Source: a virus
Length of the DNA stretch: 37,442 nucleotides
IMG/VR virus record: IMGVR_UViG_3300034198_008918
Coordinates: 1 to 37,442 of that record
Reading direction: 5' to 3' (one strand)
The notes below the pieces were generated by a model, which was not told the DNA's origin, did not search any database, and saw only the letters and a program-made list of their open reading frames with translations. Of the stretch, positions 5,795-10,003 are shown piece by piece; positions within the stretch are counted from its first letter, which is position 1; every line of letters begins with the position of its first letter. A program made the translations under genes and the position numbers.

Positions 5795-6255
5795 AAGTCC
5801 TCCTCTTCAAATGTTCTTGCAGTTCCTGTTGTGCGAACATGAATTATATCCAGTTGTATACCTGCTGAAAAAGCAGATACAAGTGCTGAAAAGCCTATTG
5901 CTTGATAGAAGCCTACCATGGTGTCTACGTCTTCTTCACTAAGCTCTTCCATGTCTCTTATGCCAGATTCTTTAACTTCTCTCATCTGTACAGAAGCCAC
6001 AATTCGAGCGTTAAGTTCGCTAATAACGTCTATAAAAGGTAACACATCATCGAGGTAGGCTAGTCTAATTTCGCTGTCTTCTTGTTCTTTTTCATCCCCT
6101 TCTTTACTTACAGGAGTAAGTCCAAGTTTAGACGCAATTTCATTAGGGTTATCAATGCCAAAATCATAAAGAGCCCATCTAAGAACTGTGCTTAGTGGGA
6201 CATTAGTAGTAACTTGCTCAGGTTCTTTTCTAAACCTGTTGTTAAACCAACTCAC
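5791..6255 (-). CDS. Conserved phage protein downstream of DNA polymerase
   Basis: This 154-aa protein (MSWFNNRFRKEPEQVTTNVP) starts at GTG 6253-6255, which overlaps the polymerase stop as GTGA and has GGGGAG 8-9 nt upstream; a GTG 15 nt earlier lacks that support. It has a basic N-terminus, a helix-turn-helix-like segment (LSTVLRWALYDFGIDNPNEI ending in Ala-Ser-Lys), an acidic linker and two long helices, the last quite hydrophobic (FYQAIGFSALVSAFSAGI). Function unknown. Position suggests a replication accessory role, which is only inferred. Confidence 0.7.
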   Translation of the reverse strand: MSWFNNRFRKEPEQVTTNVPLSTVLRWALYDFGIDNPNEIASKLGLTPVSKEGDEKEQEDSEIRLAYLDDVLPFIDVISELNARIVASVQMREVKESGIRDMEELSEEDVDTMVGFYQAIGFSALVSAFSAGIQLDIIHVRTTGTARTFEEEDL

Positions 6256-8252
6256 TTGGCTTCTCCCCACTTTTGAACAATCTTAATATCCGCAATCAAG
6301 GGTACATCAAGCAAATGAATATCCTCCATCGCCTCTCTGATAGCCTCTGCAGTTTTATCTGCTAAATGGTCGGGGGAAAGGGTAACGAGCTCATCGTGAA
6401 CTGTGAGGATAAGCTTGGACTCCTTAGGAATCATGTCGTATGCACGGACCATAGCAAGCTTAATAATATCGGCTGCAGAACCTTGGATACGAGTGTTAAA
6501 AGCCTGGCGCTCAGCGCTTGATTTGTCCTTGAACACCTTGGAGTTAATCTCGGGAAGATACCGCTTACGACCAAGGATAGTTGTTACATACCCACGCTGG
6601 CGGGTACTTCCTACTACAAGCTGTCTATATCGGTCTACGGAAGTGAACTTAGCGGAAAAGTCGTTAAGTAGCTGTTTAGCTTCGTTTAATTTACAACCAA
6701 TCTGACTAGCAATCTTGTCAGGCCCTACGCCGTACGCCATAGCAAGTACTAACACCTTACCGGCTTTACGGTTTACTCCCATAGTGTCTCCTACGGTTGT
6801 GTAGATATCGCCACCTTTTAGGTAGTTATCCAACATGATTGGGTCTTTAGACATAGATGCGATAACTCTAGGCTCGATTTGTGAATAATCCGCTACAACT
6901 AACTTATATCCTTCGGGTGCGTAAAAAAGGTTTCGTAGCATACGACCGTACTGCTTATCATCAGGAACTTTAGTTGGGTCTTCAGGAGCAGGTATGTTTT
7001 GTAAATTGGGGTTTTTAGAACTAAAACGACCTGTCTCAGCACCATGTTGTACAAAGTCGCAATGTATTTTGCCGTTAAACATTAAACTTTCTTTATAAGA
7101 AGTTTTCTCTTTACCATTGGTAGTGCGAATTACATCGCCTCCTAAATACGGAATAACATAAGTACTTAATAACTTATTTAAATCCGCGTAGTCTAACAAC
7201 GCGGAAGCTAATTTGTTAGAAGCTCTGTAGGGCTCTAATGCTTTGGAAGATACAGAATAATCAGAAATGGTAAGCGTTTGTCCATCAATATCTTTTTCAA
7301 TACCTTTATCTGTATACAATTTAGGTTTTAATCCTTGACCACCTTCATCTTTACTTCCATACAAAATTGCTTGTTTTTCAGAATTGGCGTTAATATTAAA
7401 AACTCGTCCAGCAATGCTGTAAATTTCAGAACGTGCTTTTTCCAAATTAACCTCTAAACGGTCGTGAAGGAGAACTAACTGCTCTTGGTCTACGGGTGCC
7501 CCTGTAAGCTTCATATCGCATAGTACGCGAAGAACGCTCATTTCAAGGTTCATTATCTTTGTTAACTGGGCTTCTTCCAACTTCTTTTGCAAAACGCTGG
7601 TGTAAAGCATGTAGGTGTACTTAGCGTCAAGGTAAGCGTATTTAGCAACAACACTAAAAGCATACTTTTCAACTTCTTTACCAACGCCTTTGACCATGTG
7701 ATACCCAAACTCTCGAGCAAGGCATGCGTCAAGGCTTACTTTATTTTTATTCTTATTATCATAAAGAAAAGAAGCAATCATCGTATCAAAATAAGGGCCG
7801 TTGGGTACTTTGCCTCCGTAGTACTTAGCGATAGACGTCAAGTCAAACACCAAGTTATGGCCCACCAATGTGCGGTCTTCTCCAAACATAAGTGGTTTGA
7901 GAGCAGCGAACACCTCAGCAGGAAACAGTTGAGGCGGTGGTGGAAAAAAATGGTGAATAGCTTTTTTCTTATCTTTAGAATAATCGGTGGCTTTTAATTC
8001 AATGCCTTCTGCAATCTTTTTCTCACCTTTAGGTAGGAGCGGGAAAGACTCATAATCGAACTCTCCGTTAGGATGCCCTAAAGGAATAACATCACCGCGC
8101 CCATGTGTCGCTAGTGAAATCCATAAAACTTCATTAACAACTGTCACACCACGAAATGGTCCTACAGTTTCTAGGTCGTAAGCAAACGAGTCTTGCTTAA
8201 GGTAATACTCAACTAATTCATCAAGTTGTTTTTTAGTCGTAATAATATTCAT
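6252..8252 (-). CDS. polA: DNA polymerase I (family A) with 3'-5' exonuclease
   Basis: This 666-aa protein has no 5'-3' exonuclease domain. Proofreading motifs are YDLETV (D26, E28), GHNLVFDL (N133, D137) and YAYLDAKY (Y205, D209). Polymerase motifs are A, VVADYSQIE (D455); B, RKAGKVLVLAMAYG (R495, K499, Y507); C, LTVHDELV (H619, D620, E621). The primer-grip-type segment TGRFSSKNPNLQNIP is at 407-421. At the position matching E. coli Phe762 it has Leu503, a variant that metagenomic studies associate with a temperate-like or slower lifestyle. It is the main replicative polymerase of the phage. ATG at 8252 has an ideally spaced AAGGGG, which lies in a folded leader (8253-8305). Confidence 0.96.
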   Translation of the reverse strand: MNIITTKKQLDELVEYYLKQDSFAYDLETVGPFRGVTVVNEVLWISLATHGRGDVIPLGHPNGEFDYESFPLLPKGEKKIAEGIELKATDYSKDKKKAIHHFFPPPPQLFPAEVFAALKPLMFGEDRTLVGHNLVFDLTSIAKYYGGKVPNGPYFDTMIASFLYDNKNKNKVSLDACLAREFGYHMVKGVGKEVEKYAFSVVAKYAYLDAKYTYMLYTSVLQKKLEEAQLTKIMNLEMSVLRVLCDMKLTGAPVDQEQLVLLHDRLEVNLEKARSEIYSIAGRVFNINANSEKQAILYGSKDEGGQGLKPKLYTDKGIEKDIDGQTLTISDYSVSSKALEPYRASNKLASALLDYADLNKLLSTYVIPYLGGDVIRTTNGKEKTSYKESLMFNGKIHCDFVQHGAETGRFSSKNPNLQNIPAPEDPTKVPDDKQYGRMLRNLFYAPEGYKLVVADYSQIEPRVIASMSKDPIMLDNYLKGGDIYTTVGDTMGVNRKAGKVLVLAMAYGVGPDKIASQIGCKLNEAKQLLNDFSAKFTSVDRYRQLVVGSTRQRGYVTTILGRKRYLPEINSKVFKDKSSAERQAFNTRIQGSAADIIKLAMVRAYDMIPKESKLILTVHDELVTLSPDHLADKTAEAIREAMEDIHLLDVPLIADIKIVQKWGEAK

Positions 8253-8305
8253 ATAGTCCCCTTAGGCGAAATGACTGGACTATAAGGCAGGGGGTAGCCC
8301 AGTCA
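8252..8305 (-). promoter_or_regulatory. Two-state RNA leader of the DNA polymerase gene
   Basis: On the minus-strand transcript, fold A is an 11-bp stem (5' arm UGACUGGGCUA, 8305-8295; 3' arm UAGUCCAGUCA, 8282-8272) with a 12-nt loop (8283-8294); one pair is G-U and exists only in this strand's RNA. The loop sequence CCUUA can pair with UAAGG at the ribosome site, as in a pseudoknot. Fold B pairs UAUAGUCC (8284-8277) with GGACUAUA (8259-8252), covering the end of the Shine-Dalgarno and the A of the ATG. A and B share bases and exclude each other. No U-tract, so not a terminator. Confidence 0.65.
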
Positions 8306-8319
8306 CTTCACATCTATTG

Positions 8320-8976
8320 TTAGATTAAGCTTGCAACGACTTCGTTAAGTTCTTCAGCTGAAAAACGACGAACCGAAGTAGAATCAAACGCTTGCATTTC
8401 TGCAATCGCTCTTTGTGCTTTAGCTTCATCAATGCCGTAGTCCTCCATGAGGTCACGGCCTTTAACAGGGTTAACTGTATATGTTGTTTGTTGCATCTGA
8501 CCGGCACGAGAGATTGACCAATAGTTATTAGTCAATGGACCAGATGTGGGATTGTGCTCTGCTGCCAGCAACGCTCTAAAGAAAAGCGGAGTAGCAATAA
8601 GCTTTGTTAAAGTTGTTTCCTCTGGTGTAAGTACTGCTACTGAGAACATGTACTTTTTTTCGGCTTTGTCTTTAAGACGAAGACACAACGGGCAAGACGC
8701 TCCGATACATACATAAGAACGCTGTCCTTCCTTTTGTAGGAAGTGCTGCTTGTATTGAACAGGGCCCTCTGTGCCAAGGAACTTAACAATCTGTGGAGTT
8801 TCGCTAGGCTTAAAATCCTTCGCGTATTCCTTTGGTTTTACTGATTCTTCTGCAGCTGCCCATCCTTGTTTTACTACATCATCTGTAGTTCCAGCTGGTC
8901 GAGCATCTACGTTTTCAATTGCGAATTCGTCTGTTTCTGGAACGAAATCGTCTGTTACTTTAATTGACATGTGCAT
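8320..8976 (-). CDS. Single-stranded DNA-binding protein, T4 gp32-like zinc type
   Basis: This 218-aa protein has an acidic disordered N-terminus (about 1-60), a central domain with H78-x11-C90-x4-C95-x2-C98 (in QHFL and CIGASCPLC) resembling the zinc site of T4 gp32 (His, then three Cys ending C-x2-C), followed by beta-strand segments (KYMFSVAVL, NNYWSISRAG, TYTVNPVKGRDL). The C-terminal part is mixed-charge and helical. It should coat single strands during replication and recombination. It directly precedes polA. ATG at 8976 has AAAGG upstream. The gp32 link rests on the Cys/His pattern and context, not identity. Confidence 0.75.
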   Translation of the reverse strand: MHMSIKVTDDFVPETDEFAIENVDARPAGTTDDVVKQGWAAAEESVKPKEYAKDFKPSETPQIVKFLGTEGPVQYKQHFLQKEGQRSYVCIGASCPLCLRLKDKAEKKYMFSVAVLTPEETTLTKLIATPLFFRALLAAEHNPTSGPLTNNYWSISRAGQMQQTTYTVNPVKGRDLMEDYGIDEAKAQRAIAEMQAFDSTSVRRFSAEELNEVVASLI

Positions 8977-9974: not shown

Positions 9975-10003
9975 AAATCCCCCTTAAGTATGGGGTGAGC
10001 CTA

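Follow-up and report, generated by a model that had tools for sequence, protein, structure and literature searches.

We find that an RNA hairpin lies between a probable single-strand DNA-binding protein (SSB) gene and the downstream DNA polymerase gene polA, that its stem covaries across relatives, and that its loop is in most of the family complementary to the Shine-Dalgarno (SD) region of polA. We interpret this element as an intercistronic cis-acting RNA regulator in the SSB-polA transcript that would act as a translational brake on polA, a reading to which we assign a probability of roughly 0.6.

The locus and its hairpin

The window analysed here is the virus record IMGVR_UViG_3300034198_008918 from IMG/VR, with a length of 37,442 bases. 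The initial annotation had drawn attention to a 67-nt gap upstream of polA; this gap is confirmed, and it carries the entire element (Table 1).

Table 1. Coordinates of the SSB-polA junction and of the RNA element in the window.
Feature	Position	Strand	Description or basis
Upstream gene (probable SSB)	8320..8976	minus	218 aa, probable OB-fold, H...C-x5-CPLC motif
polA	6252..8252	minus	666 aa, family A DNA polymerase with 3'-5' exonuclease domain
Intercistronic leader, 67 nt	8253..8319	minus	between upstream stop codon and polA ATG
Stem 1, 5' arm (GUGAAGUGACUGGGCUA)	8295..8311	minus	MFE fold and covariation
Apical loop CCCCCUGCCUUA, 12 nt	8283..8294	minus	complementary to polA Shine-Dalgarno region
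Stem 1, 3' arm (UAGUCCAGUCAUUUCGC)	8266..8282	minus	MFE fold and covariation
polA Shine-Dalgarno region UAAGGGG	8258..8264	minus	3' strand of putative stem 2; loop complementarity

The polA product matches the Pfam families DNA_pol_A (E 2e-88) and DNA_pol_A_exo1 (E 2e-12), and the polA ATG is located at 8252-8250. The gene upstream, whose stop codon is at 8322-8320, probably encodes an SSB. A distant homologue of its product is found beside polA in the Streptomyces phage LuckySocke, where it is annotated as 'SSB protein', and the homologue in BRock has 26% identity (E 3e-7). Weak matches to the PHROG 'single strand DNA binding protein' were detected for 10 of the 33 family members of the upstream protein (best E 0.004), and the match to Pfam gp32 is weak as well. 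The AF2 model of the 218-aa protein has good confidence (pLDDT 83); a fold search with this model returned OB-fold proteins as the best, albeit weak, matches (E 0.03), and a PDB sequence search for SSB structures gave nothing convincing. In one subclade (L066, L097, L100 and L107), the zinc-type CPLC motif of this protein is partly or wholly lost (NDPLC, NDPLI) and the remaining protein is retained.

The leader of the window folds into a stem of 17 bp (8311-8295/8282-8266) that begins 8 nt past the SSB stop codon and ends just 13 nt (CUAAGGGGACUAU) before the polA start. Its MFE of -26.8 kcal/mol (z -3.0) was matched by none of 200 shuffles. The 11-bp hairpin that had been proposed from the letters of the window is present, not as the full structure, but as the upper part of this longer stem. 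Rfam 15 yielded no match in the window at gathering score, and relaxing the threshold to E 10 for the leader gave no match either. A mini-hairpin further 5', over the SSB stop codon (AUCUAACAAUAGAU), was rejected, as by eye it is not conserved among relatives. The base of the stem is overlapped by an AUG-UGA start-stop (8313-8308, minus strand), which is AUG-UAG or AUG-UAA in many close relatives and absent from distant ones.

To compare the leader among relatives, we used IMG/VR scans with polA proteins, which resulted in 265 loci whose polA is at least 50% identical to that of the window (range about 55-90%), and in 147 usable distinct leaders from these loci. Megablast against GenBank phages and a polA scan of genome contigs detected no close relatives. 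A comparable hairpin is found at the SSB-polA junction in about 147 distinct leaders, with a mean MFE z-score of -4.3 and 99% of the scores below -2. Over the 147 leaders, stem 1 has a median length of 15 bp and starts at a median of 10 nt past the SSB stop codon, and the spacing between stop codon and stem varies little (mean 10.5 nt, 5-15 nt in 89% of leaders), where lengths and spacings come from a stem finder that mis-picks the stem in a few long leaders, e.g. L272.

Covariation was estimated from a structure-blind MAFFT alignment of 24 close leaders (A2). Here, 95.3% of the stem 1 cells are paired compared to 80.1% in shuffles, and two-sided changes are observed in 14 of the 17 pairs, including basal pairs (A2 columns 16-19). 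The number of two-sided cells, 72 compared to 21 in shuffled alignments, was reached in none of 500 shuffles, and pairing falls to 35-53% in slid registers. The outermost two pairs of the stem (8311-8310/8267-8266; A2 columns 14-15/62-63) are nearly invariant, with G-C in 24 of 24 leaders and a U-G wobble in 23 of 24. Among the non-Watson-Crick cells of stem 1, 59 are G-U and only one is A-C. Since G-U is far more frequent than A-C, the selected molecule is the RNA in polA sense and not the DNA or the other strand. The same argument had been made from a single G-U pair of the window; it is correct and becomes much stronger across the relatives. Judged by this covariation, stem 1 exists and is strongly selected as RNA. 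Furthermore, a covariance model from these leaders was run on 40 test sources; it recovered the SSB-polA junction in most of them and, over 404 kb, no site besides this junction, i.e. one site per genome.

Complementarity between the loop and the Shine-Dalgarno region

In the window, the loop can pair with the SD region in two registers of 5 bp each, CCCCU (8293-8289) with AGGGG (8262-8258) and CCUUA (8287-8283) with UAAGG (8264-8260). The initial annotation had listed the latter pairing as an additional possibility, and it is the loop:SD pairing that the relatives keep as second interaction, with a contiguous helix of 5-9 GC-rich bp in 80 of the 147 leaders. The loops mostly contain CCCC(C)UU, and the SD of polA is then usually AAGGGG, not GGAGG. 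Examples are the helices AUCCCCUU/AAGGGGAU in L014, UAUCCCCU/AGGGGAUA in L218 and UAUCCCCUU/AAGGGGAUA in L088, the last of which marks the upper end at 9 bp.

Over 62 leader clusters, the score of the loops with their own SD is 12.84, compared to 11.68+-0.30 for swapped loops (reached in 0 of 5000) and 10.72+-0.29 for shuffled loops. A CCCC loop occurs together with a GGGG SD in 31 clusters and neither is present in 20, while CCCC without GGGG is found in eight and GGGG without CCCC in three. On the polA tree, independent pairs that differ in both traits almost always change in the same direction (4.8 vs 0.3); the tree-based sign test by itself is non-significant (median p 0.13-0.25), with too few informative pairs. 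The flank test shows weak compensation beside the C/G runs (p about 0.1). The putative stem 2 is thus based on conserved complementarity and co-occurrence, short of full covariation. At this level of evidence, most of the family keeps a loop that is complementary to the SD, and this complementarity follows the type of SD.

The complementary loop is lost and the stem is kept in L029, the nearest relative of the window, and other clades of the window's family have kept the stem with unrelated loops (ACGUGC; UUGACAU). The ACGUGC loop recurs in L101, L113, L125, L137 and L154, where the SD is AGGA and not AAGGGG; this motif is possibly a protein contact. No loop:SD match is found in the clade with UUGACAU loops (L149, L241, L249 and relatives). 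Several of its members instead enclose the hairpin in a basal helix (UCCAAUAGC with GCUAUUGUGGA) that takes up the SD region (GUGGAG). The 5' side of this helix varies with no clear compensation, and the helix is possibly an alternative means of hiding the ribosome site.

When the window was scanned for further hairpins with matching loop:SD pairing, none was found besides the SSB-polA leader. A simpler arrangement is seen on the minus strand at 9975-10003, in the leader of a 129-aa gene (9974-9585), where CACCCCAUACUUAAGGGGG stands immediately before the ATG. As read from its letters, this is a possible SD-sequestering element, a small hairpin with CCCC opposite the GGGG of the ribosome site. 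Immediately upstream of this leader (about 10159-10002, minus strand) lies a ribbon-helix-helix-like ORF of ~50 aa (MATPAKTPTRTIRVPDDLWKAV...), which falls under the 60-aa cut-off of the ORF list.

A proposed brake on polA translation and its alternatives

In the proposed mechanism, stem 1 would fold immediately past the SSB stop codon and its loop would serve as an anti-SD for polA. The ribosome site of polA would be open in the full-hairpin state; once 4-6 basal pairs open, the loop could capture the SD as an H-type pseudoknot, and initiation would be blocked, which would keep the level of the polymerase below that of SSB. Candidate drivers of the exchange are SSB itself, the polymerase and ribosomes that finish translating SSB. 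We infer three points of this scheme: loop and SD do pair, their pairing is repressive, and the RNA passes between the two states.

The geometry of the leaders bears on this proposal. Where loop and SD can pair, the median length of stem 1 is 16 bp, and ~3 nt link the stem to the SD strand. In a pseudoknot, 3 nt are too short to span 16 bp of helix. Thus, the pseudoknot would require roughly 4-6 basal pairs to be open, with ~11 pairs left, where the span limits in this estimate are approximations. In the window, opening the six basal pairs 8311-8306/8271-8266 leaves exactly the 11-bp stem of the initial annotation. Because the basal pairs must open for the pseudoknot, the full hairpin and the pseudoknot compete; because these basal pairs covary too, both states are apparently under selection, and this pattern suggests a switch. 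In a crude energy model, the pseudoknot lies 4-6 kcal/mol above the full hairpin (median) with an error of similar size, and according to this model it may need help to form.

The idea of two mutually exclusive folds at the polA ribosome site is therefore retained in altered form. An RNA-level element with two competing states stands, but the competitor would be the loop:SD pseudoknot and not the 8-bp hairpin (8284-8277/8259-8252) that had been set against the 11-bp hairpin. The letters of this second helix are complementary in the window. In the comparison of the polA leaders for compensatory changes, which bore out the first stem, the 8-bp helix did not covary: 54.8% of its cells are paired compared to 56.1% in shuffles, with no two-sided excess, and at least 7 bp in that geometry are present in the window only among the 147 leaders. 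The helix is a coincidence of the window, and the model built on it is highly improbable.

The brake can be read more strongly as a bistable switch, in which selection maintains both the full hairpin (site open) and the part-melted hairpin with the loop:SD pseudoknot (site closed), and in which the SSB level or the ribosomes terminating on SSB set the translation of the polymerase. We propose this version tentatively and consider it rather unlikely in full; if true, it would apply to a large phage family with family A polymerases, mostly from environmental metagenomes. Several observations speak against the brake as such: compensatory variation within stem 2 is weak, the window has a mere 5 bp of stem 2 while L029 and other clades have no matching loop, and the crude energy estimate places the pseudoknot above the full hairpin.

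Streptomyces-type phages bring in a further reading. In L084, L085, L277 and others, a hairpin of the same kind is located directly behind SSB, with at least one gene between SSB and polA. Since the hairpin stays behind SSB when polA does not adjoin, it also has an SSB-linked role and is not purely a polymerase operator. L082, L084, L085 and L273-L291 carry a long hairpin (often at least 18 bp) with a recurrent apical UAGAUUA behind their SSB stop codon, and these loops have no evident SD match. We infer that the SSB-linked hairpin is the older form and that, in most of the lineage to which the window belongs, its loop turned into an anti-SD for polA. The hairpin might then primarily be a 3'-end element of the SSB message, such as a stabiliser, an RNase III processing site or an insulator favouring SSB over downstream products, with a secondary or modulating loop:SD pairing. 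The narrow stop-to-stem distance and the persistence of the stem in clades without loop:SD pairing agree with this, and we regard it as a possible minority explanation; it leaves unexplained, however, why own loops outscore swapped and shuffled loops and why CCCC loops and GGGG SDs occur together. A GC-rich hairpin right behind a stop codon could also serve as a leaky intrinsic terminator of transcription from SSB into polA, and U-rich tails do occur in a few relatives (e.g. L052, L076, L116). At least 5 U in the 8 nt past the stem are found in just 11% of the leaders, though, the window has CUAAGGGG and nothing terminator-like was found in it, which makes termination improbable.

A special case of the brake would be an autogenous translational operator, where the polymerase or SSB binds the hairpin or the pseudoknot and represses polA, in analogy to T4 gp43 and gp32. 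The gene setting is shared with the T4 control (PMC3014915), and the near-invariant G-C and U-G pairs at the stem base of the close clade as well as the recurrent loop motifs (ACGUGC; UAGAUUA in Streptomyces phages) could be protein contacts. As the stem sequence is not conserved and the loop letters vary by clade, this special case appears doubtful. The initial annotation had suggested a counterpart of the T4 operators: the SSB/polymerase functional setting is indeed the same, but the hairpin is not purely a polymerase operator, as it follows SSB without polA next to it.

Comparison with known regulatory RNAs

H-type pseudoknots that sequester the SD are known from the rpsO/S15 operator and from the preQ1 and SAM-II riboswitches. 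There, a loop or downstream strand pairs around the SD and controls initiation, as proposed here for polA. Of the features of such pseudoknots, we observe a covarying stem 1 and an SD-complementary loop that is conserved across relatives. In contrast to them, the element at the SSB-polA junction has no conserved ligand pocket and no Rfam match, and its stem sequence is free to vary.

The T4 gene 32 pseudoknot is located 67 nt before the start of gene 32 itself, is followed by an A+U-rich region and is bound by gp32 (PMC3014915, PMC535899). The likeness to the gene 32 operator of T4, T2 and RB69 lies in a phage replication gene with a (here putative) pseudoknot in its untranslated leader and an SSB in the locus. 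However, the SSB-polA element lies behind the probable SSB gene and in front of polA instead of in SSB's own leader, and directly at the SD, which is itself the putative pseudoknot strand. A+U-rich UUAAA repeats of the gene 32 type between element and start are absent from the 13 nt of the window. The T4 gene 43 operator is a hairpin with a conserved UAAC-type loop and no pseudoknot, and its repressor gp43 is an alpha-type B-family polymerase (PMC3014915). As in T4 and RB69, a hairpin stands beside the ribosome site of a phage DNA polymerase gene, whereas here the polymerase downstream is of the A family, the stem is long and variable and the loop is anti-SD. A UAAC/UAAA loop of the gene 43 type was not found over the 147 leaders, whose loops are CCCCUU-type or other. 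The Extended Start-Associated Sequences (ESAS) of Cluster K mycobacteriophages, ~17-bp inverted repeats of unknown function (PMC3203893), are similar as inverted repeats of about 17 bp shortly upstream of the ribosome site in actinophages. ESAS follow a consensus sequence and are found at many genes of each genome, whereas the element described here occurs at one site and its stem letters vary.

By analogy, the element would work like SD-sequestering pseudoknots and share its regulatory logic with the control of T4 genes 32 and 43, whose specific features are missing here wherever they could be tested. We found no earlier description of the element in the open-licence literature. Most of what is known about leader RNAs that control replication genes in phages comes from the T4 type. 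A review from 2010 described the gene 32 pseudoknot as possibly the sole viral pseudoknot in translational autoregulation (PMC3014915). The SSB-polA element comes from phages of a separate lineage, whose polymerase is of family A. Its natural variants, well over 100 in number, are a ready-made mutational series, and it offers a clean test of how the stoichiometry of SSB and polymerase is set.
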